Below are positions 3,433 through 48,412 of a stretch of 64,000 nucleotides of DNA, one piece after another. The position numbers were made by a program, and so were the translations under genes. Every line of letters begins with the position of its first letter. Within the stretch, counting starts at the first letter, position 1. Location of the stretch: positions 2,210,726 through 2,274,725 of the forward strand of contig NZ_LN890655.1 of NCBI RefSeq assembly GCF_900066015.1, written 5' to 3'. The notes under the pieces are model-generated. The model was not told the origin of the DNA and did no database searches. It worked only from the letters and a program-made list of their open reading frames with translations. The stretch comes from Candidatus Promineifilum breve (lineage in GTDB: Bacteria; Chloroflexota; Anaerolineae; Promineifilales; Promineifilaceae).

Positions 3433-3870
3433 CTAAAGGGCCAATAGCTCTAACAAGCCTGTGGGATAGACCGGCGGCGCGGCCGGGTCGAGCGAATCAG
3501 CCAGGCTGACCCACACGGCGCGAAACGGATGGCCGCTGTCCTCGACGCCATCGATTGCGGCCTGGTCATAAAGGGCGCGGTCGGCGAACGCGCCATCGTA
3601 GATCATGACGATCTCGTGCCCCGGCCGGCCGTCGAAGGTGAAGACGTTCTCCAGCGCGCCGAGATAGCGCAGATCCACCACGGCCGCGCCTAACTCCTCG
3701 GTCAGTTCGCGGGCAATCGTGTCGGCGCTGTACTCGCCGAACTCAATGGCCCCGCCCAGTGGCCGGTAGAACGTCTGGCGCTTGAGCGGGTCGTAACCCT
3801 CGGCGACGAGGATGCGGCCGTTGTGCTGGAAGACACAGATGGCAATGGGGCGGATAACGTTGGGCTGCAT
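3433..3870 (-). CDS. Nudix hydrolase
   Basis: 145 residues. The Nudix box is complete: GGAIEFGEYSADTIAREL followed by TEELGA, matching GX5EX7REUXEEXGU. The N-terminus IRPIAICVFQHNGRILVAEG is the usual first beta strand. Known: Nudix enzymes cleave nucleoside diphosphates linked to a variable group, using Mg bound by the box glutamates. The substrate cannot be told from sequence. The gene is alone on its strand and ends next to a hairpin. A decayed, internally deleted copy of this gene lies at 4541-4684, beyond the Uma2 gene. Confidence 0.88.
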   Translation of the reverse strand: MQPNVIRPIAICVFQHNGRILVAEGYDPLKRQTFYRPLGGAIEFGEYSADTIARELTEELGAAVVDLRYLGALENVFTFDGRPGHEIVMIYDGAFADRALYDQAAIDGVEDSGHPFRAVWVSLADSLDPAAPPVYPTGLLELLAL

Positions 3871-5257: not shown

Positions 5258-7348
5258 CTATGCGGAGGATTCAATGGATGTTTTCAGGCGCACCACCGAT
5301 CCCAATGCCCGCCACAACGGCCCATCCTGCCGCGCCCCGCGCCGGTCGAGGTCGCTCGTCGCCAGGATGACCCCCTCGCGGCAGCGCGCCGTCAGGCCGC
5401 GCACAATGCGCGTCAGCAGTTCGTTGCGCACGGCGAACTCCTCGTCCACCGTCCAGGGGATTTCCGGCGAGCGGCTTTGGGCCAGCACGAAGGCGTTGCT
5501 CAGCGGCTGGCGAGGGATGTCCCACCACCCCTGGGCGGCCGTCTCCAGCCACACCTGCACCCGCGCCGGCTCCCCGGCCAGCAGGTAGGCGTAGATGGTC
5601 GATAAGACGACGCCCTCCGGGTCGGGTGGCTCGCCCCAGTCGGGCGGGTTGGCCGTCACGAGGCCCTGATTGACGGCATCGATGAACGCCGCGCCCAGAT
5701 CGGCCTCGGTCAGCAGGCCCATCGCCGGGGCCGCCTTGCGCAAGCGGGCCGCCGAGCGCACCAGCCAATCGAGCACGGCCGCGCCGGCCACGTCCGGCTC
5801 CGGCTGGAACTCCGGCCGGGCCAGCAGGTCGTTGAACAGGCTATGGAGAAAAACGTCGATGGTGTCGCTATGGGCGCGCGCGGCCAGCCACAACCGCGCC
5901 TCTTCCACCAGGTGCGCGTCCTCGGCCCCTACGCGCTCGGCGATGCGCGCCGGCAGTTGTTCGATGGGCAGTAGTTCCGGCGCGGCCGGCCGGTAGAGAT
6001 TATCCACCAGCAGTTGGGCGCGGGCCGGGTCAAGGCTGTGGATGCTCAGCGTCAGCGCCTCGGCCACGTCGTAGGGCGCGGGATGGACGCCCCAGCCGGG
6101 GTGGGCCAGCGCCAGCCACGTCAGCCAGGCGCGGACGCGCGGCTCCTCGCGCGGGCTGGTGCGGCGGCGCAGCAGGCGGTAGGGCAGCCCGGCCTCGCGC
6201 AGCGCCCCGGTCAGCATATAGCGCAGCGCGCCATCCATGTAGGGCACGATGACGGCAATGTCACGCGCGGCCACGCCCCGGCCATAGACCAGTTCGTGGA
6301 GCACGGGGCCGAGGTTGGCGATCATCTCGCGCCGGTAGCGCCCGCCGACGACGGTCAGGACGCGCTCGGCCGCGCCCTCGGTCGGCAATGTAGTGTGCAG
6401 CAAGTGGTTTTCGACCTGGTTCGCCAGCGCGGTCATGTCGGCCGGGGCGACGAAGCTGTGGCTGAAGTCGAAGACGTGGGTGAAGCGCCCGCGCATGCCC
6501 TCCGCGCCGTGGGGGTCGGCGGCCAGGAAGCGCTTATAGCCGCCGCCGGCATCGACGGCCACGGCCGTGGTCTGCGTCTCGCCCATCAGCCCGGCGACGA
6601 AGTTTTGCCCGGCCGGGGTCTGCTCCTCCAGATTATCGACGATGAGGTGGCGGTAGCGCTCGCGGAAGTAGCGGTGGAATTCGGGGTGGCGCACCAGTTG
6701 GGTATCGAAAAGCTCAACCGTCAGCGACAGGTCGAGCAGGCTATCGGCCAGGCAGCGGCGGCGGAAGGCGCGGGCGGCCGTGGCCGCGTCGTCCAGGTGG
6801 AAGCGACGCTCCGGCTCGCCCGCCCAGGTGCGCGTCTGGCGGGCGATGGCCTCCTCCAGTGGCAGGGCGTTGAGCGCCGCCCGGTTGAGCGTGTCCAGCA
6901 GTTGGCTGACGATCTGTTGCGGCCGCAGGCGCAGATTGGCGAACGCCCCCTGGGCCAGCAGCGGCGTAACGATGCGCCACATGAGCACCTGGGCCTGGTC
7001 GTAGCTCAGGAACGTCGGCGGCACGTAGGGGCGCTCGAAGCCCGCGTCGCGGGCCACCAGCGGCCAGAACAGCGCGGCCATGCTCTGGGCCAGTCGCGAA
7101 TAGTTGGTGACGTTCAGTTCCGAATAGGGGCCGAGGCCGGAGGCGTGGACGGCGTCGAAGAAAGCGGCGCGGTGTTCCGGCTCGGCCACCAGCGCCAGCA
7201 CGGTATAGGCCGGCTCCTGGCGCAAGAGGCGGATGAGGCGCTGGTGGAGCGCGGTCGTCTTGCCCGTTCCGGCCGGGCCATAGAGGTAACTCGCGCCGCC
7301 GGCGTCAACGGCTTCACGCTGTAGGGGGGTCAGGTCTGGCATTGGCAT
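5258..7348 (-). CDS. UvrD/AddB-like superfamily 1 NTPase, short C-terminus
   Basis: 696 residues. Residues ~15-35 hold a Walker A loop, LYGPAGTGKTTALHQRL. Around residue 235, RHLIVDNLEEQTPAGQNF is the Walker B position of UvrD-type helicases (usually DExQD), followed by TTAVAVDAGGGYKRFLAADP, the sensor motif III region. VAARDIAVIVPYMDGALRYM with LREAGLPYRLLRR matches the start of helicase domain 2 (motif IV). The C-terminus stops soon after, without clear UvrD motifs V and VI or an AddB nuclease. It may be a degenerate helicase, a regulatory NTPase or half of a two-part recombinase. It is not in an operon. Confidence 0.65.
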   Translation of the reverse strand: MPMPDLTPLQREAVDAGGASYLYGPAGTGKTTALHQRLIRLLRQEPAYTVLALVAEPEHRAAFFDAVHASGLGPYSELNVTNYSRLAQSMAALFWPLVARDAGFERPYVPPTFLSYDQAQVLMWRIVTPLLAQGAFANLRLRPQQIVSQLLDTLNRAALNALPLEEAIARQTRTWAGEPERRFHLDDAATAARAFRRRCLADSLLDLSLTVELFDTQLVRHPEFHRYFRERYRHLIVDNLEEQTPAGQNFVAGLMGETQTTAVAVDAGGGYKRFLAADPHGAEGMRGRFTHVFDFSHSFVAPADMTALANQVENHLLHTTLPTEGAAERVLTVVGGRYRREMIANLGPVLHELVYGRGVAARDIAVIVPYMDGALRYMLTGALREAGLPYRLLRRRTSPREEPRVRAWLTWLALAHPGWGVHPAPYDVAEALTLSIHSLDPARAQLLVDNLYRPAAPELLPIEQLPARIAERVGAEDAHLVEEARLWLAARAHSDTIDVFLHSLFNDLLARPEFQPEPDVAGAAVLDWLVRSAARLRKAAPAMGLLTEADLGAAFIDAVNQGLVTANPPDWGEPPDPEGVVLSTIYAYLLAGEPARVQVWLETAAQGWWDIPRQPLSNAFVLAQSRSPEIPWTVDEEFAVRNELLTRIVRGLTARCREGVILATSDLDRRGARQDGPLWRALGSVVRLKTSIESSA

Positions 7349-7388
7349 GGATCAATTGTAGCGCAGGTTTCCTAACCTGCGGCGCGAA

Positions 7389-7459
7389 GTAGGTGGAACT
7401 TCCAGTTCCACACAAGCGGCGGGCGGAACTGAAAGGGCGGAACTGGAAGTTCCGCCTAC
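7389..7459. repeat. Hairpin element, GTAGGTGGAACTTCC family, copy 1
   Basis: Arms GTAGGTGGAACTTCCAGTTCC and GGAACTGGAAGTTCCGCCTAC pair almost perfectly. A short separate hairpin (GCAGGTT/AACCTGC, 7363-7380) lies beside it. The TAG stop of the next gene is the CTA at 7456-7458 inside the right arm. A second copy is at 33426-33484. Confidence 0.87.
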
Positions 7460-9294
7460 AACTGCCGATAGCGCAGCCGCACCGCCCCGAGTTGGATCTC
7501 GTCGCCGTCGCCCAGTTGCAGGCCATACTCGGGGACTTGGCGCTCGTTGACGTAGGTGCCGCTGGTGCTGCCGGCGTCGTAAATGCGGTACTGGTTGCCT
7601 TCCAGGCGCAGGACGGCATGGTAGCGGGAGACGGTGATGTCGTCACGGAAGGCGATCTGCGATTGGGCCGGCGAGCGGCCGATGCGCACCTCGGCATCGC
7701 CCAGCGTCAACTCTTCGGGCATCAGCGTCTGGGCATCGATCACTTCCAGATGGGCCATGACGAAGGATGGCTCATAGCCACCGGCCCCCATGAAATCGAC
7801 CGCGGCGCTGCCCTCGTCCAGCGGCTTCGACGCGGCCGGCTGGCCGGCCGGGGTGCGCGGCCGGCGGCGGCGCGACCCGCCCGCGGCGGGCGCGGCCGAG
7901 CCGGCGCGGCGACGCCACAGCCAATAGCCGGCAACGCCCAGCCCCGCCAGCGCCAACAACCACAGCAGCCACGTCCAGTTGAAGTTCAAACCCGCCGGTT
8001 GCAACTCTTCAGGAACCGACGATTCGGCCCCCTGGGTCACGGTGATGATAACCGGCGCGCTGGTCGAGATAAGCCCCTGGATATCCCTAGCCACAACTTC
8101 CAGCCGATTATCGCCGAAGGTGAGATTGGGGATGACGGCCGTGAACGAGGCCAGTTGATTGACCGGAATGTCGGCCACCTGCTGGCCGTTGACCAACAGT
8201 TCGGCCGAGGTCACCTCGCGCTGTTCGCCGTCGAGCCAGGTAACGGCGGTGGACAGTTGCAGTTCGACCGGCTCATCCAGATCGGGCAGGGTCAGGCTGC
8301 GGCTCTCGCGGGGGAGGTTGATGACCACGTTGGGCGCGGCGGTGGAGATGATGACCTCCGTCGTGGCCCGCACGTCGCGGTTGTTGAGCAGACTCACCTC
8401 GACCTGGGCCGGGCCGCCGGTGGCTTCGGGCACGGTGTAGCGGATCCACGAATGCTCGCGAAAGCCGGCGATGCGCGCCCAGACCGAGGCCACGCCGGCC
8501 GGATCGGCCAGTTCGGCGGCCACGCCGCGCGAGCCGGTGGAGAGGTCACGCAAATAGGTACGGCCCAGTTCCAGCCCCGCGCCGAGACCGGGATTTTCCA
8601 GGTGCAGGGTGTGGATGGGCACGCCAGCCTCCGCCGCCCGCGTGGTCACGTCGCCCGGTTGGGCCTGCGACGTGCCGGGGTCGGTGCCGTCGCTGATGAG
8701 GACGATGGACGCGGCCATGGCCGGGTTGGGCTTCATACCTTCGATCTCGCCGATCAAACTGATGACGCTGTCGTAGAGCGAGGTGGCCCCCTCTTCGGCC
8801 GTCAGTTGCGACGTATTGAACAGGTTGGCGACGCCGTTGAAGAAGGAGGTCGGGGCCAGGAGTTGTTGCGGCCCGTCGGCGCGAATCTGGTAGACGGCCA
8901 CGTGGTCGATCTGCTCCTGCATATTGCCGGCCGAGGCGTATTGCTGGATGGCAGCGATGATGGCCGGTATCTGCTCGCTCGTGCCGCCGGCGGCGTCGAT
9001 CAGAAAGACGGTCAACGTGCCCACGGGGGTTTTGCCGTCAAAGACGACCTCATCGACCGGGAAGCCGTTGTGGCTGGCGAACAGCGGTTCGGTGGCGAAA
9101 TCGAGCGGCGCGCCCTGGCCGTCCATACCGTAGACCTGGAGCCGGACGCTGGGGAAAGTATTGGTGTCGGAGTCAGTGATGTTGAGGCGGCCGATTTGGC
9201 CCGTCTCCTGCGCCCCGACCACGACTACCACGCTAAGAATCAGGCTGAGCGCGGCCAGCAGACCCCGCAAGATACGACTGTGGGCGTGTCCCAT
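7456..9294 (-). CDS. Membrane protein with VWA-like extracellular domain and cytoplasmic FHA domain
   Basis: 612 residues. A signal peptide/anchor (LRGLLAALSLILSVVVVVGA) is followed by a von Willebrand A-like region (~60-270; TLTVFLIDAAGGT, then ASIVLISDGTDPG). The MIDAS DxSxS is degenerate (DAAGGT), so metal binding is doubtful. Two Ig-like stretches follow (~290-430), then a transmembrane helix near 445-465, a basic linker, and an FHA domain (~515-610; VRIGRSPAQSQI, TVSRYHAVL, GSTSGTYVNE) that binds phosphothreonine. This is a plausible way to link an outside signal to Ser/Thr kinase signalling inside (inference). Divergent paralog at 9361. The stop codon is supplied by a repeat. Confidence 0.85.
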   Translation of the reverse strand: MGHAHSRILRGLLAALSLILSVVVVVGAQETGQIGRLNITDSDTNTFPSVRLQVYGMDGQGAPLDFATEPLFASHNGFPVDEVVFDGKTPVGTLTVFLIDAAGGTSEQIPAIIAAIQQYASAGNMQEQIDHVAVYQIRADGPQQLLAPTSFFNGVANLFNTSQLTAEEGATSLYDSVISLIGEIEGMKPNPAMAASIVLISDGTDPGTSQAQPGDVTTRAAEAGVPIHTLHLENPGLGAGLELGRTYLRDLSTGSRGVAAELADPAGVASVWARIAGFREHSWIRYTVPEATGGPAQVEVSLLNNRDVRATTEVIISTAAPNVVINLPRESRSLTLPDLDEPVELQLSTAVTWLDGEQREVTSAELLVNGQQVADIPVNQLASFTAVIPNLTFGDNRLEVVARDIQGLISTSAPVIITVTQGAESSVPEELQPAGLNFNWTWLLWLLALAGLGVAGYWLWRRRAGSAAPAAGGSRRRRPRTPAGQPAASKPLDEGSAAVDFMGAGGYEPSFVMAHLEVIDAQTLMPEELTLGDAEVRIGRSPAQSQIAFRDDITVSRYHAVLRLEGNQYRIYDAGSTSGTYVNERQVPEYGLQLGDGDEIQLGAVRLRYRQL

Positions 9295-9327
9295 GAGACT
9301 TACTCCCTGCCTTCCAAGTTATGTTGA

Positions 9328-9333
9328 TATAAT
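9328..9333 (+). promoter_or_regulatory. Extended -10 promoter element for the 9361 gene
   Basis: TGATATAAT in the 66-bp gap between the two divergent VWA-FHA genes: a perfect TATAAT with the upstream TGn of extended -10 promoters. No good -35 is seen. AGGAG and AAAGGA follow before the ATG at 9361. Confidence 0.5.
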
Positions 9334-9360
9334 ACCAGACGAGGAGAGGAAAGGAAACAG

Positions 9361-11217
9361 ATGATCATCCGGTGGGGAGCAAACCGTTCGCTTTTTTACG
9401 TGGCGCTTATCGGGCTGCTGCTGGCGGCGGGGCGGGCGGGGGTCGGCCCCGTCCTCGCCCAGCAGGTCGAGCGGGAGCGCGACGACGTGCGCATCACCGC
9501 CGTCACGACGTCGGCCTTCCCGACTGTCGCCGTGCGCGTGCTGACGACGGCCGCCGGCGGCGCGCCCATCGCCGATCTGTCGCGGCTGGTGCTGCGCGAG
9601 AACGGCGTGCCCATCCCCGACACGACTTTGGCCCGCACACCCGTCGGCGTCGATGTCGTCCTGGTGCTGGACGCCAACGCCGACTTCCTGCTGTTCGATG
9701 ACAACAGCGGGCTGAGCCGGCGCGACAAGGTGGCGGTCGGCATCGGCCGCTACACGGCGCAATTCATGGCCCCGTCCGGGCTGGATCGGGTGTCGATCAT
9801 CGTCCCCGACGCGGCCGGCGGCGCGGCTTTTCTGATCCAGGACGCCAACCGGCCCGACGAGGTGGCCGCGGCCATCGCCGCCTTCAACCCCACGCCGCAG
9901 GCCACGCCGCTCCAGGCGATGCTGGCCGCGGCCATCGACCATATGGCGGCGAATGACGACGGCCGTTTTCGGGCCGTCCTGCTCTATAGTGACGGGGCGC
10001 GCCTGGGTAACCAGCTCGATTATCCGGCGCTGGTCGAGGCGGCGCAGGCGGCGGCCATCCCGCTCTACGTCGCCATCCTGGGCGCGGCGGCGTCGCCCGA
10101 AGAGACGGCCAACGCCGACGGGCTGAGCGGGCCGACCAACGGCCTGAGCGTCCACGTGCCCGAGCCGGAAGCGGCCGACCCCATCTACGAGATTTTCCGG
10201 GCGCAGGGGCAACAGGCCGAGGTGGCCTACCAATCGGCGCTGCGCCAGAGCGGGATGCACGAGGTATCGGTCAGCGTGGGCAACGTGCGCGACGCGGCCG
10301 AGTTTGAATTGGCGCTGGCCACGCCGGAGGTGGCGCTGCACCTTTCGCAGACGACCATCCGCCGCGCGGGCAGCGCCGTCGATACGCCGCTGGCGCTGCT
10401 GCAACCGGCCGTGCTGCCGTTGACGGTGCAGGTGGCCTGGCCCGACGGCCTCCCGCGCGCCTTGACCGACGTCGCCTTCCAGGTGGATGGCGTGGCCCAA
10501 CCGCTGGCCGCCACGCCGGCGCTCGACGGCGCGGGCCAATTGACCCTGGCCTGGGACATCAGTGAGCGCGACGCGGGCATTTATCTGCTGGAGGTGGCGA
10601 TCGCCGACGCATTGGGCTTGCGGGCCACGGCCGCCCCGCTGGAGGTCACCATCGAGGTCGCCCGCCCCATTCCGCCCACGCCGACCGTGGCGCCCACGCG
10701 CACGCCGTCGCCGATCTTGAGCGCCGGCCGGAACGCGCCTTGGGGCGTCATCCTGCCGGCGGCGCTGCTCCTGGCCGGTCTGGTGGGGGCGGGCATTGTA
10801 CTGGCGCGGCGGCGGGCGCGGCGGGCCGCCCAGCCCGCGCCGCCCCCGCCGCGCATCATCCCGGCCACCGACCCGCCTGATGATCGCCACGTGGCCGTGC
10901 TGGAGCGGCTGACGGCCGAGGGGCACGCCGTGGAGGCCATCGAATTGACGGCGGCCGACGTGACGCTGGGCCGCGAGGCGGCGGCGGTGGAGATCGTCGT
11001 CGATGACCCCAGCGTGTCGCGCTTGCACGCCCGCATCCGGCGCAACCAGGCCGGGGAGTATTGGCTGTTCGATGAGGGCAGCGTGCAGGGGACAGCCCTT
11101 AATTTCGAGCCGTTGGGGTTGGCCCCGCGGCTGTTGCAGCATAATGACGTGATTCAAGTGGGGCGGGTGGCGTTGCGGTTTCGGTTGGAGATGCCGGAGA
11201 AAAGACCCTCTCCCTAG
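9361..11217 (+). CDS. Membrane protein with VWA-like domain and FHA domain (paralog)
   Basis: 618 residues with the same plan as its divergent neighbour: signal peptide (FYVALIGLLLAAGRAGVGPV), VWA-like domain (~70-300; VDVVLVLDANADFL, where MIDAS is again degenerate, and FRAVLLYSDGARLG), Ig-like part, Thr/Pro linker, transmembrane helix near 460-480 (VILPAALLLAGLVGAGIVLA), then a cytoplasmic FHA domain (~535-612; TLGREAAAVEIVV, PSVSRLHARI). The FHA GT-N motif is weaker (GTALN). The last residues and the TAG stop come from the first unit of a tandem repeat array, so the C-terminus has been altered by it. Divergent paralogs may answer different ligands. Confidence 0.83.
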   Translation: MIIRWGANRSLFYVALIGLLLAAGRAGVGPVLAQQVERERDDVRITAVTTSAFPTVAVRVLTTAAGGAPIADLSRLVLRENGVPIPDTTLARTPVGVDVVLVLDANADFLLFDDNSGLSRRDKVAVGIGRYTAQFMAPSGLDRVSIIVPDAAGGAAFLIQDANRPDEVAAAIAAFNPTPQATPLQAMLAAAIDHMAANDDGRFRAVLLYSDGARLGNQLDYPALVEAAQAAAIPLYVAILGAAASPEETANADGLSGPTNGLSVHVPEPEAADPIYEIFRAQGQQAEVAYQSALRQSGMHEVSVSVGNVRDAAEFELALATPEVALHLSQTTIRRAGSAVDTPLALLQPAVLPLTVQVAWPDGLPRALTDVAFQVDGVAQPLAATPALDGAGQLTLAWDISERDAGIYLLEVAIADALGLRATAAPLEVTIEVARPIPPTPTVAPTRTPSPILSAGRNAPWGVILPAALLLAGLVGAGIVLARRRARRAAQPAPPPPRIIPATDPPDDRHVAVLERLTAEGHAVEAIELTAADVTLGREAAAVEIVVDDPSVSRLHARIRRNQAGEYWLFDEGSVQGTALNFEPLGLAPRLLQHNDVIQVGRVALRFRLEMPEKRPSP

Positions 11218-11761
11218 CCCTCTCCCAAGGGGAGAGGGAACTGTCCCCCTCCCTCCGGGAGGGGTTAGGGGAGGGTCTGGGAGACGGATGAGGACAAAGA
11301 CCCTCTCCCTAGCCCTCTCCCAAGGGGAGAGGGGATCTTGTCCCCCTCCCTCCGGGAGGGGTTAGGGGAGGGTCTGGGAGATGGATGAGGACGAAGACCC
11401 TCTCCCTAGCCCTCTCCCAAGGGGAGAGGGAATCATGTCCCCCTCCCTCCGGGAGGGGTTAGGGGAGGGTCTGGGAGACGGATGAGGATGAAGACCCTCT
11501 CCCTAGCCCTCTCCCAAGGGGAGAGGGAACTTGTCCCCCTCCCTTCGGGAGGGGTTAGAGGAGGGTCTGGGTGACGGATGAGGATGAAGACCCTCTCCCT
11601 AACCCTCTCCCAAGGGGAGAGGGAACTTGTCCCCCTCCCTTCGGGAGGGGTTAGGGGAGGGCCTGGAAGGCGGATGAGGACGAAGACCCTCTCCCTAACC
11701 CTCTCCCAAGGGGAGAGGGAACTGTCCTCCCTCCCTTCGGGAGGGGTTAGGGGAGGGTTCC
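11204..11761. repeat. Six-unit tandem array of a 95-97-bp palindromic repeat
   Basis: Units start with GACCCTCTCCCT at 11204, 11299, 11396, 11493, 11589 and 11685. Each carries a CCCTCTCCC/GGGAGAGGG hairpin and a CCCCTCCCTCCGGGAGGGG hairpin, then TAGGGGAGGGTCTGGGAGACGG. The array fills the 567-bp gap after the 9361 gene and contains its stop codon. Apparent reading frames through the array are an artefact of the repeat. Related words occur in the coding sequence at 47282-47758. Confidence 0.93.
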
Positions 11762-11784
11762 GACGGGGGTTCAAAGGTGACGCA

Positions 11785-13227
11785 ATGAAGACGAGATTCT
11801 CAAATAAAATCCGGTTGGCGGCGCTGTGGCTGCCGCTGCTGCTGGGGGCGTGTGGCGGGTTCGATGTGGGGCAGATCGTCGCGCCGAGCGGCGAGGCGAC
11901 GGCCACGCCCGCGCCGGCGCTGACCATCATCACCGACGACGGGCCGACCCCCACCCCGGCGGCGCTGGGCGAGACGCCGCAACTGATGTGTACACCGCCG
12001 GCCTGCGCCCCCGGCGAGGGGTACGCCTGCCCCAGCGGCGACTGCCCCGGCGGCTGTGGCACGGTCTGTGTTGCCCCGACGGCCGTCTCCGGGCCGCTGG
12101 CCGCCGCGCCGACCGAGTGGGAGAATCTCGAAGGCTGGCTGGCAACGCTGTGGCGCGGCAATATGAACCCGGCGGCGGTGCGGGCCGCGCTGCAACAGTC
12201 GGGTATGCAGCGCTCGCCTGACGATTGGCGCGCCGCCGACTTTGACGGCGATTTGCAGGATGAGTGGGTTGTAGTGCTCTATGACCAGTCGTTGCCCGGC
12301 GTGCCCTTCGGCTCGCCCGGCGATCTGTGGGTTGTCAACGGCGACGGGGTCATCTTCCGCTATTACACCGCGCCCAGTAGCGACATCTACGAATTCCTGG
12401 CCCCGACGATTGTGGCCGTGGCCGACATGACCGGCGACGGCCTGCCCGAACTCATCGCCGACGCCCCCACCTGTGGCGCGCACACCTGCTTCAACAACTA
12501 CCGCATCATCGGCCTGCTGGACGGGCAATTGACCGACCGGCAATTTGTGGCCCCCCAGCCTTCGCCGGTGGAAGTCGATCCGACGCGGCCCACGCCGATC
12601 ACGATGAGCTTCGCCGACACACGGCTGGAGGACGTGAACGGCGACGGCTTGCCGGAGTTCCTGGTCCACGGCGGCATGATTGGCTCGGTAGGCGCGGGCG
12701 TCGTCCGGCCGCGCACCGAGGTGTGGGGCTGGGACGGGACGGCGGTCGTGCTCAGGGAGACGATTCTCGACCCGACGACCTCCCGCCACCACATCCTATA
12801 CGAGGCCAACGATCTCATGGACGCCGGCGATCTGGACGGAGCGCTGGCTCTCTACGAGACGGCTATCAACGACGGCGCGCTGGGCGACGATGGCTTCGCC
12901 CAATCGCCGGAGCAGGCGCGGGCCGACATCAACGCCTTCGCCGCTTTCCGGCTCATCCTGATCGACCTGCTACAGGGCAACGCCGAGCGGGCCAATAGCC
13001 GGCTGGCCTGGCTGGGGGCGACCTATCCGGCGTCGGCCGCGGCCGGGGCGGCGGCGACGCTCGTGGCCGAATGGACCGGGCCGGAGAACGCCAGCGCGCT
13101 GTGTGACCGCATCGAGACGAGCCTGTCGGCCGTCGCCAATCCGGCCGGGGCGTTAGCTGATATGGGCTATGGCAATCCTAGCTTGGGGGCGGGGGATTTT
13201 TGTCACAATCTACGTGGAAATGAGTGA
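11785..13227 (+). CDS. Lipoprotein with FG-GAP/VCBS-like repeats and TPR-like C-terminus
   Basis: 480 residues from ATG 11785; longer readings begin inside the repeat array and are rejected. A lipobox LPLLLGACGG follows a short hydrophobic stretch. A cysteine-rich segment (CTPPACAPGEGYACPSGDCP) sits near residue 75. Then come DFDGDLQDEWVV, DMTGDGLPELIA and DVNGDGLPEFLV, Asp-rich calcium-loop motifs of FG-GAP/VCBS beta propellers. The C-terminal third (DAGDLDGALALYETAI; NAFAAFRLILIDLLQGN) is TPR-like. It is probably an outer-surface protein with a carbohydrate or protein binding role; the exact function is unknown. Confidence 0.75.
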   Translation: MKTRFSNKIRLAALWLPLLLGACGGFDVGQIVAPSGEATATPAPALTIITDDGPTPTPAALGETPQLMCTPPACAPGEGYACPSGDCPGGCGTVCVAPTAVSGPLAAAPTEWENLEGWLATLWRGNMNPAAVRAALQQSGMQRSPDDWRAADFDGDLQDEWVVVLYDQSLPGVPFGSPGDLWVVNGDGVIFRYYTAPSSDIYEFLAPTIVAVADMTGDGLPELIADAPTCGAHTCFNNYRIIGLLDGQLTDRQFVAPQPSPVEVDPTRPTPITMSFADTRLEDVNGDGLPEFLVHGGMIGSVGAGVVRPRTEVWGWDGTAVVLRETILDPTTSRHHILYEANDLMDAGDLDGALALYETAINDGALGDDGFAQSPEQARADINAFAAFRLILIDLLQGNAERANSRLAWLGATYPASAAAGAAATLVAEWTGPENASALCDRIETSLSAVANPAGALADMGYGNPSLGAGDFCHNLRGNE

Positions 13228-38460: not shown

Positions 38461-38480
38461 TGAGATACTCGGTTTCTAAG
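38461..38480 (+). repeat. Direct repeat, left of the AT-rich cassette
   Basis: TGAGATACTCGGTTTCTAAG, 19 of 20 bases identical to 43399-43418 (TGAGAAACTCGGTTTCTAAG). The same core is also seen in the hairpin at 941-972, so it is a dispersed word. Confidence 0.7.
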
Positions 38481-39139: not shown

Positions 39140-39216
39140 TCTTTTAAACCCGGATAAGAATGGGTCTTTATCGCACAAATTTTCGCTTGGTATCTCCAGA
39201 AGATAACCTCGCCATG

Positions 39217-40437
39217 CTAATTTATTCTAAAATCATGTGGTTCGAAACTTAATACTTGTCGTTTTATATTTGGATTATTTCTTCGCATTTTTAACCAACG
39301 TTCGCGCCAATACGACACTAATTCAGCCATTGGATAATTTTTATACACTGGTTGGTTATCTGTGCCATTCAAGAATTCTTTGTAGTTTTTTGCCAAGGGC
39401 ACAGCATATATTTGTCTTTTGAAAGAGTGGCGTAACAAGAAATCAGCATCAAAACCTAATAATTCAGCCGCCGTACGCATTACCCTCATACGCCAAATGG
39501 GACCATCACCGAATCTGTTTGTGACATCTATTCCTTTTTCTAGAAGAATAGACCTCATTGCACGAAATGTCTCATCAGTCAGATGTAGAGTTCCGTAACC
39601 TTTAGTGTGTCCAATTGGTAAGTAAAGCGGGTTAGCTTGGTAATTGAGGCGGTTATATTGTGAGCTTTTGCCGAACAAACTTGTGGTGAATAAACAAACC
39701 AAGTCGCTTGCTGTGCGTTGGGAAATTGATGTTATGCGGTCACTATACTTTTTTCTGAATATCTCTCGAACTTCGTTGGATGCAAGAATATAGGACATCA
39801 GCTTTCCACCAAGCAAGTGATTGTATGGTGGTAATGCTCCTAACACATATGCGTCCATTGCATAGATAAGGTTCCGAGTTCTTGTCGGCACATCCCAGCC
39901 TACCCAGACATCTCGTTCTGGAATATGTATTATTGAGCTACCAAGAGCTGCTATCCCAATAATCGGCTTTCCTGGTATTGCTCCATCTCGCACTATCAAT
40001 TTAATCCGCCTGCCAACATATTCGCTGTAAGGTGAAGACCAATAGAACCGTAGAAATCGAAAAATATCAAACTGCTTTTGAGTCTCGCAGACTTCAATTT
40101 CGGGATCCACATCTGATTTCCAGATAGTGCTTCCCTTGGCTAGATTGTTTTGTGGAACATCGGCGTGCTTTTGAAGCCATTTGTTGTGGATAGCAATGAG
40201 TTCTTGGCGCTTAATCTCCATAGAGTCTCTTATTATTTTTTTGTCGTAATAAGCTGGTGGAATTAGGCTGACACCATCTCGTGTAAGAGACATTTCCCAA
40301 CCAAGTCGCATGAGATCACGCAAGATTAATAAACGAACTCTCTCTTCCGAGGAATCAACTTCCACAAAACCCAAGTCAGGACTTCGTGTTAATACATGCT
40401 CAATATGAGCATGGTGCTCAATTTTGAAATTCAGCAT
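39217..40437 (-). CDS. DUF4338 (DruA-like) protein
   Basis: 406 residues. The central part matches DUF4338/DruA: FLRFYWSSPYSEYVGRRIKL, KPIIGIAALGSSIIHIPERD with VWVGWD, ALPPYNHLLGGKLMSYILAS and TSLFGKSSQYNRLNY, then GYGTLHLTDETFRAMRSILL. DruA is the DUF4338 component of the Druantia anti-phage system; its biochemical role is not established. Here it is third in an AT-rich operon after nurA and herA, 11 bp downstream of herA. No Druantia partner (such as DruE) is present. Base composition differs strongly from the host. Start codon without a strong Shine-Dalgarno, so coupling is likely. Confidence 0.8.
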   Translation of the reverse strand: MLNFKIEHHAHIEHVLTRSPDLGFVEVDSSEERVRLLILRDLMRLGWEMSLTRDGVSLIPPAYYDKKIIRDSMEIKRQELIAIHNKWLQKHADVPQNNLAKGSTIWKSDVDPEIEVCETQKQFDIFRFLRFYWSSPYSEYVGRRIKLIVRDGAIPGKPIIGIAALGSSIIHIPERDVWVGWDVPTRTRNLIYAMDAYVLGALPPYNHLLGGKLMSYILASNEVREIFRKKYSDRITSISQRTASDLVCLFTTSLFGKSSQYNRLNYQANPLYLPIGHTKGYGTLHLTDETFRAMRSILLEKGIDVTNRFGDGPIWRMRVMRTAAELLGFDADFLLRHSFKRQIYAVPLAKNYKEFLNGTDNQPVYKNYPMAELVSYWRERWLKMRRNNPNIKRQVLSFEPHDFRIN

Positions 40438-40448
40438 CGGCTCAGTTC

Positions 40449-42107
40449 TTAGAATTTTAGATTGGGGTACACATCTTTAGCAACCAGCTTCTCGAACTCA
40501 TCCACGCGAACTGGTAAAGCAAAAGCCTGGTCTGACGAAACCATATATAGATTACCAGGTATCGTTTCTCGCTGAATAAAGCTCGAAATCACCCCATCGT
40601 AATTAATGTTAGACCTGACAAGTGCTTTAATATCATCAGAGTTTCCCATGTGAAATGCGAAGAAGTTCTCTGCCTGTGTTCTAATCTCCTCCGAAATAGC
40701 TGACGGTCTCTGGGTGATAGCCACTAATCCAAGACCAAATTTTCGCCCTTCTTTGGCAACTCTGACGAATGGGTTTGCATTGGATCGTACAAATTCGTCT
40801 GAAAGAACATTTTGAGCTTCTTCAACAAATATTACAGCGTTAATTACTTTTTCAGGTTGGTTCGATGTGAACTCTCGCTTGTTACCTTCGAAAAGCCCCC
40901 GAACAAGTAACGTTGAGACAATACTGGCGGCGGCGTTATCTTTTAGGGACAGATCAATAATTACAGTTTTCCCTTTCTTCAAGGCTTCGGACACATCCTC
41001 GACTAGCTTGGATGTTGCCGAATGTAAACCTTTGCCTTCATCGATCAAATACTTAACACGTTTTCGAATCGCTGCGACCGTTTTCGAGGCGCTTGCATCC
41101 ACCTCGTTTTTCTTATTTAGTGCCCAGAAATCAGGGTATTGTACATGTAGTAGTTGCGGATTTTTCACGTATTCGTCGATCCGTTTAATAAAGTCTGTTA
41201 CACCTTCTTCGTCAAGGTATAGCAAGAATGACTTCATTACCTCCGAAAACCCAGCGCCAAAATTTAGAATATCACCAACGGTTAGGTGGGTAACCATATC
41301 AAGTTCGACTTTACCTTTATAATCAAAGGATGCTTCTGCGCTCCTATAAAAGGTCGGAATGTCCTTATCAGAATAAACTACTAAGTTTGAACGAATATTG
41401 TCTTCGTTAATATCGGCTAAACCATAGGTTTTGGCTTCGGTACTTCTTAATACATATTCCCCATTTAGATCAAAAATCAGCTTCCCATAGCTGGTATTCT
41501 TAACCATGTGATATAGCAAAACCTTGACCAAGTTAGTCTTGCCAAAACCAGATTGAGCAAACACCATTGTCCGCTTACTACGAAGCTTATCTATATTGAA
41601 AAGTATCGGTCCCTTGTCCGTGAAGATGTTTTCGCCCACACAAAGGTACCCAATTTTCACTCCGTTTTCGTTTGTCTTATTAAGGATGTTTTCTATTTCA
41701 CGCTTGTTAACGTGCCGTGCAATATACGAAACGGATGGTAGTTTCCTAACTGCGGTTGTAAATGAAAGTGAAGCTCCAGTATCTGTAAACGTGCCAAGGA
41801 TTCGTACTTTGTAGGTGTAACTGAACATTTTTTGCTTATCGCGCTCTGATAGCTCGCGTTCAGCAATCCGGGCATAATGGACAGCAATAAGAGTTTTATC
41901 TTGCGACCTAAAAATAGGATCTTCGTCGTAAATTTCTGCCTCGACACGCGCAAGATACTTCGTCCCACCCTCATCCTTAGGAGTTAGGATAATGAAATCA
42001 CCAGTTTGTGGACTGGCCTTAGCATCCTCGTAGGAGGAATATATTAATAGCGCATCTTCGGTGGTCTTCTGACCGTACAAGACGCCGAAATCAACCTTAG
42101 TGCTCAT
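40449..42107 (-). CDS. herA: HerA-type hexameric ATPase/translocase
   Basis: 552 residues. An N-terminal HAS-barrel-like region (~1-120) is followed by Walker A AQSGFGKTN (~184-192), Walker B AVIFVEEAQN (~424-433), RVAKEGRKFGLGLVAITQRP with the arginine-finger/sensor region (~449-470) and a conserved C-terminal tail. HerA forms a hexameric ring that pumps DNA into NurA during end processing. AGGAG lies 5 nt before the ATG. Sandwiched between nurA (8 bp upstream) and the DUF4338 gene. 24 of 60 bases in 41101-41160 are G or C, far below the neighbourhood. Confidence 0.92.
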   Translation of the reverse strand: MSTKVDFGVLYGQKTTEDALLIYSSYEDAKASPQTGDFIILTPKDEGGTKYLARVEAEIYDEDPIFRSQDKTLIAVHYARIAERELSERDKQKMFSYTYKVRILGTFTDTGASLSFTTAVRKLPSVSYIARHVNKREIENILNKTNENGVKIGYLCVGENIFTDKGPILFNIDKLRSKRTMVFAQSGFGKTNLVKVLLYHMVKNTSYGKLIFDLNGEYVLRSTEAKTYGLADINEDNIRSNLVVYSDKDIPTFYRSAEASFDYKGKVELDMVTHLTVGDILNFGAGFSEVMKSFLLYLDEEGVTDFIKRIDEYVKNPQLLHVQYPDFWALNKKNEVDASASKTVAAIRKRVKYLIDEGKGLHSATSKLVEDVSEALKKGKTVIIDLSLKDNAAASIVSTLLVRGLFEGNKREFTSNQPEKVINAVIFVEEAQNVLSDEFVRSNANPFVRVAKEGRKFGLGLVAITQRPSAISEEIRTQAENFFAFHMGNSDDIKALVRSNINYDGVISSFIQRETIPGNLYMVSSDQAFALPVRVDEFEKLVAKDVYPNLKF

Positions 42108-42115
42108 AAAATCTC

Positions 42116-43348
42116 CTAAAATCTATCGTGCATATCGAGGAAAAGATTCTCGATGTCAACGTTATCCATATGTTGATCTTTGTAAAGTGAGTACTTGACC
42201 CTGCTAATGATCACATCTTTGAAGTCACGGCGCAGTGTCACAAAGTTATGCACTTCTGCTAAAGGGTATGGGTAACCAAGAATGTAGTGCTCTTGTGTAA
42301 GCCTTGTTAGCTCTAGAAATATCTCCTGAAGTACCTGTCTATCACGAAAGAATTGGCCGTTTTCGATTTGAGGTACGGCATTAAAAATGTTCACATCAAC
42401 AATTAGCCAGTCGTAGTTCTGAAGCTTTTCTACATAATCTAGACGGGCAGCAGTGAAGAGCCCAAAACCACGTCCCCCTTTGATATTTTTCCTAGCGTAC
42501 ATATCTCCACTATAGGACTCAATCAATACTGAATCAGGGACTTCAAACCAGCAACACAACTTCTGCCGTTTAGGGTCTTGTTCGTTAAAAGGATATTTTG
42601 GCTTTAGGCGATCCTGCAAATAGTTATCTATCTGCTTAAGTGTGTAGGCGAGTTCCATCTTAATAGGAGATTGTTTGGTGACACCAACAATAACGATCCC
42701 CTTTCCATAGAGGTGTTTTCCTAAGAGAACGAGTGCTTGTTGCTTTATTTGAAGAGATCGAAGCGTTCCGTCTCGGAGAATGAAGTCGCCCGCTACTATC
42801 TCGGGCCGCTCAGATATTTCATATACGAGAGAATATTCAAGAATCTCTTGGCAAAACCCAAGTAGTGTCGATAGATTGACGCAAACCTGTTCCTTTGTAT
42901 AAGCAAATACCCGATCAAGTGGTAACTGTAAGAAGGATAGGAACTTAGCAACTGGAGGCATCATCAGAAGTTCATCATAAATCGCCAACAAATGGGTTTC
43001 GTTAGCCACCAAAATGTTCTGAGGAAGGTATGCTTGGCCTAGTATTACTGGATCATCCAAATCATTCTGACGAAGCTGTTTGCCTTCACAATAGCAAATA
43101 TACCCTGCTGTATACATTCCAATAGATAAGCCATTGTAAAACTGCTCGCTGTTGTAACTCCCATCAACTGCATAGAATTTCCGTTTTGTGTCGTCAATTT
43201 TGTCAAATGGCAATATTTCAAAAATCTGCGGCGTTTCGAGATTGTTTTGATGGCCTAATACAGGTATCCCATAGTGTTTGTTGTGACGTTGGTTAATGAA
43301 TTGTGCAACCGTCTCTATTGCGCTATCGGGGATATCTGAGTGTGACAT
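42116..43348 (-). CDS. nurA: NurA-family DNA end-processing nuclease
   Basis: 410 residues. FYAVDGSYNS near residue 60 has the first catalytic Asp; FILRDGTLRS near residue 193 the second acidic residue; YPYPLAEVHN near residue 360 the C-terminal NurA signature with its histidine. NurA is a Mn-dependent 5'-3' exo- and endonuclease that dimerises on the HerA ring. It starts the operon (AGGAAG nine nt upstream of ATG). Bacterial nurA-herA pairs are often found in defence islands; here DUF4338 is the third gene. Confidence 0.9.
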   Translation of the reverse strand: MSHSDIPDSAIETVAQFINQRHNKHYGIPVLGHQNNLETPQIFEILPFDKIDDTKRKFYAVDGSYNSEQFYNGLSIGMYTAGYICYCEGKQLRQNDLDDPVILGQAYLPQNILVANETHLLAIYDELLMMPPVAKFLSFLQLPLDRVFAYTKEQVCVNLSTLLGFCQEILEYSLVYEISERPEIVAGDFILRDGTLRSLQIKQQALVLLGKHLYGKGIVIVGVTKQSPIKMELAYTLKQIDNYLQDRLKPKYPFNEQDPKRQKLCCWFEVPDSVLIESYSGDMYARKNIKGGRGFGLFTAARLDYVEKLQNYDWLIVDVNIFNAVPQIENGQFFRDRQVLQEIFLELTRLTQEHYILGYPYPLAEVHNFVTLRRDFKDVIISRVKYSLYKDQHMDNVDIENLFLDMHDRF

Positions 43349-43398
43349 ACTGAAAAACTTCCTGGATTAGGAACATCATATGAACTGTCTGTTTCTTC

Positions 43399-43418
43399 TG
43401 AGAAACTCGGTTTCTAAG
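43399..43418 (+). repeat. Direct repeat, right of the AT-rich cassette
   Basis: TGAGAAACTCGGTTTCTAAG, 4,938 bp from its partner at 38461. Sits between the nurA start and the end of the RHH antitoxin gene. Confidence 0.7.
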
Positions 43419-43420
43419 TA

Positions 43421-43666
43421 CTACTCCAGCCGGTCGCGCTCGTCGGGCGGTTCAACGTCGGCCACCTTCGCCAGCGCCGCCTCGAATTTTGCTCGATCGC
43501 CGCGCGCCGCGCGTTGTTCCAGATAACTCTCTGTGGCCAAAGCTGAAACTTTCTCGGCCAGGGCCAGCGTGATCAACTGGTTCATGGAGATGCCCTCGTC
43601 GTGGGCCAGTTCGCGGGCGATTTTGTGGAGGGAGTCGGATAATCGCAAGCTGATGGCGGTCATCAT
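43421..43666 (-). CDS. RHH-type (HicB/CopG-like) antitoxin without a partner
   Basis: 81 residues. TAISLRLSDSLHKIARELAHDEGISMNQLITLALAEKV is a typical ribbon-helix-helix segment of HicB/CopG antitoxins; the rest (EQRAARGDRAKFEAALAKV) is the toxin-binding tail. A toxin gene would normally follow it downstream, but the downstream side here is the direct repeat and then nurA of the AT-rich cassette. The toxin may have been displaced by the insertion. G+C-rich, unlike the cassette. Confidence 0.72.
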   Translation of the reverse strand: MMTAISLRLSDSLHKIARELAHDEGISMNQLITLALAEKVSALATESYLEQRAARGDRAKFEAALAKVADVEPPDERDRLE

Positions 43667-43744
43667 AAGTTGTCCTGTTTGTTTATAATACCAAATTATA
43701 CGTCAATGATTGAAATGTTGGACTTTAACGACAGGAGTATGAAA

Positions 43745-45773: not shown

Positions 45774-46199
45774 TTATGTAGCGAGCCAATTCACCGTCTC
45801 CACCCCCTCGAAATTCGCAAAATCGGCTGTGTTAGCCGTCACCAACGTCAAGCCCTGAACGGCGGCAATAGCGGCGATCTGCCCATCAGCGAAGGCCGGC
45901 GACCGCCCTATTTGCGTAAGTCGCGCGCGCTCGGCCGCGTGCCACTGCGCCGCCGCAGCGTCATAGGGCAGAATCGGCATTGTCGTCCGCACTACGTCGA
46001 ACAAGTATCGCTCAATGGCGTTGCGCCGCTTGGACGCCGGCAGGCGCCAGCAGCCGTAAAGGAGTTCGTGCCAGACGACTGCGGCGATGGCGATCCGCCC
46101 TTCGTTCTCTTGAATCCGGTTCAGGAACTGCTGGTTAGGTGAGGGGCGCAGCGGCTCCGATATGGCGTTAGTATCCAAAAGAAAAGTAGCGTTCACCAC
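45774..46199 (-). CDS. PIN-domain toxin (VapC-like)
   Basis: 141 residues. FLLDTNAISEPL holds the first PIN Asp; IAAVVWHELLYG the Glu; PAFADGQIAAIAAVQGLTLV the third acidic residue; TANTADFANFEGV the last. All four acidic residues are present, so RNase activity is likely, with tRNA or mRNA as a typical target. The ATG overlaps the upstream Phd/YefM-type antitoxin gene by 7 bp. Convergent with the glycoside-hydrolase gene. Confidence 0.87.
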   Translation of the reverse strand: MVNATFLLDTNAISEPLRPSPNQQFLNRIQENEGRIAIAAVVWHELLYGCWRLPASKRRNAIERYLFDVVRTTMPILPYDAAAAQWHAAERARLTQIGRSPAFADGQIAAIAAVQGLTLVTANTADFANFEGVETVNWLAT

Positions 46200-46507
46200 G
46201 GCGGCTCCCGTCCCGGGTCGGTATCGCGGATGCCCGCGAATAACTTCGGTCCCAGATCGAGTTCGTCCAAATTGACTTCTTCCCGAAACCGGGCCACCGC
46301 CGCCGAAAATGATTCGGTAGGCGCTGACAAGCGGCGATATTCATCTATTGAAACGATGACCGCCACCGGTTTGCCCCGCCGGGTCAGCTCGACAGCCGTC
46401 ATCATCTCCACGTCGCGGACGATGGCGGTCAAATGATCGCGCGCCTCGGCCAGGGAGTAACTTGGCAAATGGTTTACTAGAGCACTATCCTTTAGGTTCA
46501 TAGCCAT
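46193..46507 (-). CDS. Phd/YefM-family antitoxin
   Basis: 104 residues. SYSLAEARDHLTAIVRDVEM and VELTRRGKPVAVIVSIDEYR are the Phd/YefM DNA-binding fold; the C-terminal DELDLGPKLFAGIRDTDPG tail would neutralise the PIN toxin. TATACT lies 12 nt upstream of the ATG on the same strand, a short leader. Overlaps the toxin gene by 7 bp. Confidence 0.87.
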   Translation of the reverse strand: MAMNLKDSALVNHLPSYSLAEARDHLTAIVRDVEMMTAVELTRRGKPVAVIVSIDEYRRLSAPTESFSAAVARFREEVNLDELDLGPKLFAGIRDTDPGREPPW

Positions 46508-46597: not shown

Positions 46598-48412
46598 ATG
46601 ATCCCGACCAACTCCGATCTACGCCAGTTTATCATCCAGTTCTTCAGCGATGAAGAGTTAGAAACACTCGCCTTTGACTACTTCCCGGAAGCAGCCAACG
46701 ACTTTGGCAGTGGGATGAGCAAGGGGCGTAAGGTCATCGCTCTCATCGGCCACTGCGAGCGGCGCGGCCGGTTGGACGACCGGCATGCCGCTGTGGGGCG
46801 CGAGCGGGCGGCGGCGTGGAACCAGCAATTCACCACGCCGTCCGTAGAGACGTTCCGCCGGCACGTCTCTACAATGCCCACCGCGCGCGATCCGCGCCAA
46901 ATCTTCCTCAGCCACGCCACGGCCGACGCCGCCTTCGCCTACACACTGGCCGATGACTTGCGGGCCGAGGGCTGGCGGGTGTGGATCGCGCCGGAGAGCA
47001 TCCGGCCGGGGGAGAAGTGGGTGGAGGCGATTGATCGCGGGCTGGAGACGTGTGGGGTGTTTGTGGTGGCGCTGACGCCGGATGCGGTCACTTCGCGCTG
47101 GGTCAGAACCGAGACAAATGCGGCCGTGGCGCTAGAGCATAAGGATCGTATCCGTTTCTTGCCGCTCGACGTGACGCAGTGCGAACCGCCCTTGTTGTGG
47201 AGCGGGTACCAATTTGTCCCTTTTCGTGGAAGCTATGAGGTTGGACTGGATGCGCTGCTAAGACGATTAGATGATCAACCTCCGGCGAACCCTCTCTCTG
47301 ACCCTCTACCGGAGAGAGAGGGAGCGCGCATCCCTTCTCCCCCGCTCCCCAGCACCCCTGCTCCCCCGCCCCGCGAGCGCCACGTCAAGGAAGAACAATG
47401 GCGGCAACTGCAAGCGTTGGCCCACGAGATTGCCACCGTACTGGGCAAGCAGAGCGGCGACGATGAGTTGCGTGAGGTGTACCGGCGGTTCAATCGCCAT
47501 TTTGGGTTGACGACGTATAAGAAGTTGCCGCGCAAGCGGTTTGATGAGGGGTTGGCCTTCTTTACGGAGTGGCGAGATGAGGTAGTGGCGTCGTCGGCCG
47601 AGACTCAAGACCATCTCCCACAGGCAGAGGGGGTTCTGGTTCCTTCTCCCGGAGGGAGAGGGTTAGGGAGAGGGGACAATTGGTCACAGGGGGAAGAAGA
47701 CCCTCTCCCCAACCCTCTCCCACAGGGAGAGGGGGCGCAGAGCGCGTTGCCAACCGGCGTTACAAGGCGTATCCATGAGAAGACGGGGATTGAATTGATT
47801 CGGATACCGGCGGGGGCGTTTCTATACGGTGATGATAGGCGGACGATCGACCTGCCGGAATTTTGGATCGGGCGCTATCCGGTGACCAATGCCCAGTACA
47901 AACGATTCGTGGACGAGACTGGCTATGAACCCCCATCCCATTGGAAAGGGAAGAACCCGCCGACGGATAAACTTGATCATCCGGTGGTTTATATCAACTG
48001 GGACGACGCCCAAGAGTTCTCCGAATGGGCCGGGCTGGCGTTGCCAACCGAACAGGAGTGGGAAAAGGCGGCGCGAGGCACAGACGGCCGCCGTTATCCG
48101 TGGGGCGATGATTGGGCCGACGGCCACTGCAATACTATGGAGGCCAGAGTGGGCGGAACTACGGCAGTTGGGCAATATTCACCGCAGGGAGACAGCCTCT
48201 ATGGCTGCGCCGACATGGCCGGCAATGTGTGGGAGTGGACGGCGTCGTGGTACGATGATACGCAGGCGCGGCGCGTGGTGCGCGGCGGCTCGTGGAACCA
48301 CGACCGTAACTTCGCTCGCGCGGCCGCTCGCAACTTGTACCTCGGTCCGGGCGGTCGCGGCGACCTCCTTGGCTGTCGGCTGGTGCGCCGTCCCCCATCT
48401 CAGGCGCTCTGA
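46598..48412 (+). CDS. EAD1-TIR-helical-FGE-sulfatase multidomain protein
   Basis: 604 residues. Residues 1-85 match an effector-associated death-like domain EAD1 (LRQFIIQFFSDEELETLAFD; GRKVIALIGHCERRGRLDD). Residues 98-225 are a TIR domain (QIFLSHATADAAFAYTLADD; GWRVWIAPESIRPGEKWVEA). Residues 265-332 resemble the ORF6C helical domain (VYRRFNRHFGLTTYKKLPRK). Residues 395-600 are an FGE-sulfatase/C-lectin fold (GIELIRIPAGAFLYG; NVWEWTASWYDD; VVRGGSWNHDRNFARAAARN). Known: bacterial EAD/TIR proteins act in NAD-depleting immune networks, and this C-lectin fold is the usual diversity-generating retroelement target. The two interdomain linkers are encoded by CTCTCCC-type repeats. No reverse transcriptase is in the window. 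Confidence 0.87.
   Translation: MIPTNSDLRQFIIQFFSDEELETLAFDYFPEAANDFGSGMSKGRKVIALIGHCERRGRLDDRHAAVGRERAAAWNQQFTTPSVETFRRHVSTMPTARDPRQIFLSHATADAAFAYTLADDLRAEGWRVWIAPESIRPGEKWVEAIDRGLETCGVFVVALTPDAVTSRWVRTETNAAVALEHKDRIRFLPLDVTQCEPPLLWSGYQFVPFRGSYEVGLDALLRRLDDQPPANPLSDPLPEREGARIPSPPLPSTPAPPPRERHVKEEQWRQLQALAHEIATVLGKQSGDDELREVYRRFNRHFGLTTYKKLPRKRFDEGLAFFTEWRDEVVASSAETQDHLPQAEGVLVPSPGGRGLGRGDNWSQGEEDPLPNPLPQGEGAQSALPTGVTRRIHEKTGIELIRIPAGAFLYGDDRRTIDLPEFWIGRYPVTNAQYKRFVDETGYEPPSHWKGKNPPTDKLDHPVVYINWDDAQEFSEWAGLALPTEQEWEKAARGTDGRRYPWGDDWADGHCNTMEARVGGTTAVGQYSPQGDSLYGCADMAGNVWEWTASWYDDTQARRVVRGGSWNHDRNFARAAARNLYLGPGGRGDLLGCRLVRRPPSQAL
47282..47383. repeat. Low-complexity repeat encoding linker 1 of the TIR protein
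   Basis: CCTCTCTCTGACCCTCTACC and GAGAGAGAGGGAG words followed by CCCCCGCTCCCCAGCACCCC encode NPLSDPLPEREG and PSPPLPSTPAPPP. Same word family as the array at 11204-11761. Confidence 0.8.
47609..47758. repeat. Repeat encoding linker 2 of the TIR protein
   Basis: GGAGGGAGAGGGTTAGGGAG and CCCTCTCCCCAACCCTCTCC with CACAGGGAGAGGG form a hairpin inside the gene and encode SPGGRGLGRG and DPLPNPLPQGEG. Clearly the same repeat family as the 11.2-kb array, in frame. Confidence 0.85.

Follow-up and report, generated by a model that had tools for sequence, protein, structure and literature searches.

The role of the HerA ATPase and NurA nuclease, in DNA repair or in defence, is debated. The TdpABC system of An et al. 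(Nat Chem Biol 2025, doi 10.1038/s41589-024-01832-w), a three-gene operon of a NurA-type nuclease, a HerA-type ATPase and a third enzyme, is reportedly based on DNA phosphorothioation: TdpC is said to modify DNA and TdpAB to degrade DNA that is unmodified. DruA, a DUF4338 protein, belongs to Druantia type I (DruABCDE), in which we know of no role for it. Here we analyze three minus-strand genes that encode NurA, HerA and DruA in a 64,000-nt stretch of the genome of Candidatus Promineifilum breve (this whole stretch is termed the window, and coordinates are window positions unless a locus is named). We show that DruA has been swapped repeatedly over a constant HerA-NurA pair, and we propose, with slightly better than even confidence and by analogy with TdpABC, that the trio is a restriction-modification-like anti-invader system in which DruA would mark host DNA and HerA-NurA would degrade DNA without the mark.

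The archaeal and Deinococcus HerA-NurA pairs, to which end resection or defence is ascribed, share the pump-nuclease architecture with this locus but are further from it in sequence and structure than TdpAB, and we know of no DruA partner in them. HerA-SIR2 (Nezha) and HerA-DUF4297 likewise use a HerA hexamer together with an effector in an anti-phage system, although the effector is another one, a modification-like partner is lacking and the HerA is more distant. The BREX-related capture (BRC) systems, which comprise HerA, GNAT and TGT and also PglZ, BrxC-like and STAND proteins (PMC12839542), have in common with the trio a HerA translocase and a GNAT that is proposed to modify DNA; the PglZ, BrxC-like and STAND components set them apart, and NurA and DUF4338 are unmentioned in PMC12839542. 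The sequence-only reading, an earlier interpretation of the window, knew of no described system with these three genes, and we likewise found no description of the trio in open-access full text in PubMed Central, a scope outside which lie most subscription papers and bioRxiv, so that its novelty is provisional.

HerA and NurA resemble TdpA and TdpB most closely among solved structures

All three motifs that the sequence-only reading had named (AVDGSYNS in NurA, AQSGFGKTN in HerA and PPYNHLLGGKL in DruA) were found. HerA matched PF01935 (DUF87) with E 1.5e-16, and in a profile search of the PDB its best match was TdpA (E 2e-29; archaeal HerA, E 8e-19), with which it shares only ~34% identity in the C-terminal part when the two sequences are compared. 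Taken alone, the window NurA is weakly assigned (PF09376, E 0.001, slightly short of the Pfam cut-off for a single protein). For the family the assignment is firm, because 33/33 members scanned matched Pfam NurA (best 1.6e-12), TdpB was the best PDB profile match (E 7e-5) and the AlphaFold2 (AF2) model (pLDDT 82.7) matched both TdpB (Z 23.8 over 334 residues; Foldseek E 6.6e-13) and the archaeal NurA of Sulfolobus (Z 17.3). By these profile and model comparisons, no solved proteins lie nearer to the trio HerA and NurA than TdpA and TdpB. Residues D62, G63, S64, D193 and H367 of NurA showed no variation in 39/39 sequences. Asp49 of T. kodakarensis NurA is required for activity (PMC12977600), and we take Asp62 of the window NurA to be its likely counterpart.

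A second Chloroflexota genome (G064) carries both kinds of operon, the trio on contig C18 and a TdpABC-like operon on contig C19 (locus L116, C19:36000-52000, at 7302-11245). The HerA of the latter is 59% identical to published TdpA across the last 157 residues, and beside it lie genes for a TdpB-like protein and for a PP-loop protein of the PAPS-reductase type, the latter bearing an SGGKDS motif. We take the PP-loop protein to be TdpC, and the operon as a whole is likely TdpABC. Since HerA and NurA with one further gene likewise make up TdpABC, we considered whether TdpC might itself be the DUF4338 protein; this was rejected, as the PP-loop protein occupies that place in G064. A search for a TdpC homologue in the window's own genome found none, and membership of the trio in TdpABC was rejected because TdpC is absent. 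The two systems have the HerA-type ATPase and NurA-type nuclease in common but differ in the third gene, a PP-loop protein in one and a GNAT-fold DruA in the other, and the trio is set apart as well by its gene order, NurA-HerA-DruA.

NurA, HerA and DruA occur together across distant phyla

To survey the distribution of the trio, a profile built from an alignment of two NurAs was scanned against genome contigs, which gave 42 loci. All three genes were present in 36 of these; leaving aside three loci that are truncated at or near the end of a contig (L011, L013 and L046), 36/39 were complete, in line with the co-occurrence of DUF4338 with HerA and NurA that the sequence-only reading had proposed to look for. 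The order NurA-HerA-DruA was kept in 35 of the 36 complete loci, DruA coming first in the exception (L032), and the intergenic gaps were mostly short or the genes overlapped. The loci come from about ten named phyla (Cyanobacteriota, Chloroflexota, Ignavibacteriota, Calditrichota, Planctomycetota, Nitrospirota, Bacteroidota, Acidobacteriota and Spirochaetota among them) and from several candidate phyla. Flanking genes vary among the loci, with no family shared by more than a few of them; because the nearest neighbours differ, the unit is the trio. At two loci in distant phyla, a similar gene of ~340 aa without a Pfam match lies between NurA and HerA (L035:1634-2665 and L050:11293-12312).

Three loci have decayed. 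In L034 NurA is frameshifted, HerA truncated and DruA absent; in L047 DruA is frameshifted, and an HNH endonuclease gene (11307-12152) lies between NurA and DruA in the expected place of HerA; in L052 a deletion has taken the end of HerA and most of DruA. In all three, both arms of the system are lost or broken, and no census locus holds an intact HerA-NurA pair without DruA, the pattern that host protection by DruA would produce.

DruA is exchanged over a constant HerA-NurA pair

The trio DruAs fall into deep clades separated by long branches, namely type I (n = 22, including the window), type II (n = 12), L032, and L039 with L044; the Druantia DruAs make up yet another clade. On the HerA tree, types I and II are intermingled, and their distribution requires at least 5 changes, compared with 7 to 12 in 60 label shuffles; because the HerA and DruA trees are quick trees with open forks, the count of exchanges is approximate. 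Pairwise identities of HerA and NurA correlate at 0.70, whereas those of HerA and DruA correlate at 0.24. The pair L025 and L049 illustrates this, with 85% identity in HerA and 75% in NurA but 27% in DruA. If the third subunit sets the identity signal, one would expect it to be replaceable while the degrading machine stays constant.

DruA has a GNAT fold and distant ties to Mom

Phage Mu Mom is a DNA adenine modification enzyme. The window DruA matched both PF14236 (E 1.5e-59) and the PADLOC DruA model (E 1.9e-80), and its AF2 model (pLDDT 88.7, pTM 0.87) has a GNAT fold, for which Mom (8bv8) was the first-ranked solved structure (Z 9.6, 164 residues). The PPYN motif follows a strand (193-201) in the model. 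P204 and Y205 are invariant across 35 trio DruAs, and at ~27% identity the polar residues R143, R144, D151, R175, D176, Y205, K212, R263, H285 and R318 do not vary. A sequence bridge to Mom is provided by relatives of DruA: the proteins of L095 and L096, which lie in operons of the second lineage described below, and of L097, beside which no HerA or NurA was recognised, all belong to PF14236 (L095, E 3.6e-32). PHROG 1384, "Mom-like DNA modification protein," was matched by L095 (E 2.2e-5) and L097 (E 2.7e-7), and L097 also gave a match to Pfam Mom that was weak and short of the cut-off. The bridge-protein profile matched nine phage Mom proteins with 95.8% probability and the trio DruA with 55.5% probability (E 1.2e-4), and the bridge proteins retain the His-Tyr pair of Mom. 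Mom differs in its setting, as it shields a phage, whereas DruA belongs to a bacterial operon. Lone relatives of DruA do occur in Pelagibacter phages; in phage Mosig, a lone DUF4338 gene (L126:3644-4942) lies near 2OG-Fe(II) oxygenase genes. DUF4338 has also been classed as GNAT by Rakesh et al. (PMC10853773).

A second lineage joins DruA to HerA-NurA

DUF4338 was present in 19/301 Chloroflexota genomes. Two of the 19 carry the present trio (the window genome and G064), and 10 carry a DruA-NurA-HerA operon in which HerA-NurA is much more distant (L083-L086, L090-L093, L095 and L096; the NurA assignments come from Pfam, some of them short of the cut-off, or from a local profile). L087 has HerA with a partner that has no family assignment. 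Because DUF4338 has come to stand with HerA-NurA in two lineages that differ in gene order, a functional tie between them is likely. A mere chance neighbourhood of the genes was rejected by this second lineage and by the proportion of complete loci in the census. The second lineage yielded a NERD-nuclease protein that follows one of its operons (L093:4507-5589); elsewhere, a 1247-residue protein contains an ATPase-like region joined to a split DruA domain (L099:5896-9639).

A further two of the 19 genomes are Druantia-like, with DruA and an 1820-residue protein, as are plasmid DruAs of Nitrosococcus, Meiothermus and Pseudomonas; in Druantia-like loci, hypothetical genes and a DEAD/DEAH helicase come after DruA. 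The trio has DruA in common with Druantia type I but has HerA and NurA in place of DruB-D and the large DruE helicase, for neither of which an open reading frame (ORF) was found within window 34-49 kb, and its DruAs form clades separate from the sampled Druantia DruAs. Plain Druantia was therefore rejected, the usual partners being absent, and the cassette stands, as the sequence-only reading had it, as a conserved, self-contained one distinct from Druantia.

The cassette is an insertion

The trio ORFs lie where the sequence-only reading placed them, with gaps of 8 and 11 bp between them (Table 1). In G306, a genome of the same genus, the site is empty: window positions 39140 and 43732 map to positions 3572 and 3586 of its locus (L082), and 13 nt separate the upstream methyltransferase gene from the DinB gene downstream, where the window has 4.6 kb between them. 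The trio is missing at the same site in two further genomes of the genus. Because the flanking genes abut in G306, the trio block is an insertion. Its low G+C was also as described earlier (0.41-0.44 over 39-43 kb, against 0.60-0.65 in the surroundings). From this the sequence-only reading had concluded that the block was acquired recently, of which the acquisition stands. The dating does not, because at each locus measured (31 rows, in which one locus appears twice) the cassette had a lower G+C than its flanks, so that AT-richness is a property of the cassette and "recent" holds only in a relative sense. The window NurA had no match in two scans of viral contigs or in a plasmid search, and a viral or plasmid origin of the cassette was rejected on that basis. 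A promoter scan gave a result not above that of shuffled sequences.

Table 1. Features of the NurA-HerA-DruA block in window coordinates
Feature	Position	Strand	Length	Basis or remark
NurA/TdpB-like nuclease, operon gene 1	42116..43348	-	410 aa	Pfam, PDB profile search, AF2
NurA DGS active-site motif, residues 62-64, predicted metal-binding Asp62	43157..43165	-		Invariant in 39/39 relatives
HerA/TdpA-like ATPase, predicted hexameric translocase	40449..42107	-	552 aa	Pfam DUF87, PDB profile search
HerA Walker A AQSGFGKT, residues 184-191	41535..41558	-		K190 invariant in 37/37, T191 in 36/37
DruA (DUF4338), GNAT fold, proposed DNA-modifying subunit	39217..40437	-	406 aa	Pfam, PADLOC, AF2
DruA PPYN motif, residues 203-206	39820..39831	-		Start of predicted GNAT cofactor loop PPYNHLLGGKL
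Inserted block	39141..43731	.	4.6 kb	Missing from same-genus relatives; also carries a small HicB-like ORF, 43421-43666

Discussion

By analogy, the trio probably works like TdpABC. Homology argues strongly that HerA would act as a hexameric DNA translocase with NurA docked to it as the nuclease, the two running along and degrading double-stranded DNA as TdpAB and archaeal HerA-NurA do. The GNAT-fold DruA would add a chemical group to host DNA at target sites, as suggested by its fold, its distant kinship to Mom and its TdpC-equivalent place in the operon. This mark would block or stall HerA-NurA, so that destruction is confined to phage or plasmid DNA without the mark and the host is protected. 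A swap to a distant DruA type would then change the sequence or the kind of mark and leave the degrading machine unchanged. The sequence-only reading had DruA recognise or mark invader DNA; the link to TdpAB, the repeated swapping of DruA and the second DruA-NurA-HerA lineage had escaped it. The GNAT fold near that of the DNA-modifying Mom favours marking, whereas the comparison with TdpABC favours the marking of self DNA and the destruction of unmarked DNA over the tagging of the invader. Somewhat more tentatively, at just under even confidence, we suggest that the trio represents modification-dependent immunity of a widespread and undescribed class, which pairs a constant HerA-NurA with exchangeable DruAs of the Mom superfamily, each making its own, perhaps new, DNA modification; the DruA of Druantia type I would then modify DNA as well.

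Several observations weigh against host marking by DruA. The Z score of 9.6 for Mom is in effect a tie, being within one Z unit of those for many ordinary small-molecule acetyltransferases. Direct profile homology between the window DruA and Mom was not detected (hhalign probability 0.3%), and the invariant His-Tyr pair of Mom (H58 and Y59 of Mu Mom) aligns to Trp-Ser in the trio DruAs; chemistry shared with Mom is therefore a proposal, and the trio DruA may differ from Mom in its chemistry or may only bind. The co-loss pattern comes from three loci and would equally suit any obligate three-part complex. Enrichment in defence islands, which the sequence-only reading had looked to, is weak: the 104 flanking proteins, a set counted with no control set, include 3 type IIG restriction enzymes, along with 4 matches to a MADS model and 2 proteins with a resolvase domain. 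Finally, for a DUF4338 domain fused to DndF, Rakesh et al. propose protein acetylation (PMC10853773).

The main rival, which we regard as unlikely, is that DruA is a sensor that binds a feature of the invader (a DNA structure, a modification or a protein) and recruits or activates HerA-NurA without any self-modification, so that a swap would change the invader sensed. An exchanged third subunit on a fixed machine and the missing His-Tyr pair would suit a sensor as well, and Druantia, in which DruA works, is to our knowledge not known to modify DNA. However, the invariant polar residues in such divergent DruAs point to chemistry that is conserved and not to a binding surface free to drift, the fold is that of GNAT proteins and Mom, and the third gene of the sister system is TdpC, a modifying enzyme. 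Less probable still is that DruA modifies invader DNA, or host tRNA or protein upon infection, with HerA-NurA degrading the tagged DNA or serving as a separate effector; DruA would then tag the invader or carry out a toxic acyl transfer. GNATs can acylate proteins, RNA and small molecules, and a suicidal co-effector was proposed for the DndF-fused DUF4338 (PMC10853773), but the lone DruA relatives of phages such as Pelagibacter phage Mosig better suit a protective DNA modification than toxicity, and the parallel with TdpABC also speaks against this reading.

A repair or end-resection cassette, in which an accessory acetyltransferase attends a HerA-NurA repair pair, is disfavoured and in our view improbable. 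Although end resection has been described for the HerA-NurA complexes of archaea and Deinococcus (PMC9960219), the trio is patchy across distant phyla, with an empty site in close relatives, and is AT-richer than its flanks wherever measured. Mre11-Rad50 does not adjoin the operon (none was seen among the ORFs around the window trio, nor was it among the commonest flank families at other loci), and the restriction enzymes TdpAB are closer than archaeal HerA-NurA. Least probable is a role in the transfer or competition of plasmids or integrative elements that merely resembles defence, because, although the cassette is mobile and HerA-type pumps are found in conjugation, it has no constant linkage to a relaxase, integrase or transfer gene and NurA is unmatched in plasmid and viral collections.

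The trio links DruA, HerA-NurA and TdpABC, and TdpABC thereby gains a sister system with a different candidate marking enzyme. If host marking by DruA is correct, carriers would hold an unknown DNA modification that mass spectrometry or nanopore sequencing should be able to reveal, and the swapping of DruA on an unchanging machine would constitute a natural experiment on what HerA-NurA senses.

Neighbouring genes and repeats

The window contains four copies of a near-palindromic repeat, GAGAAACTCGGTTTCT, against 0.01 expected (at 38462-38477, 43400-43415 and 940-973). Two of the copies bracket the trio together with one neighbouring gene, and the sequence may be a dispersed genomic repeat. A VapBC-like pair lies near the trio at 45774-46507, and at 46598-48412, 3 kb from the trio, is a gene for a protein with EAD7 (effector-associated), TIR and FGE-sulfatase domains.

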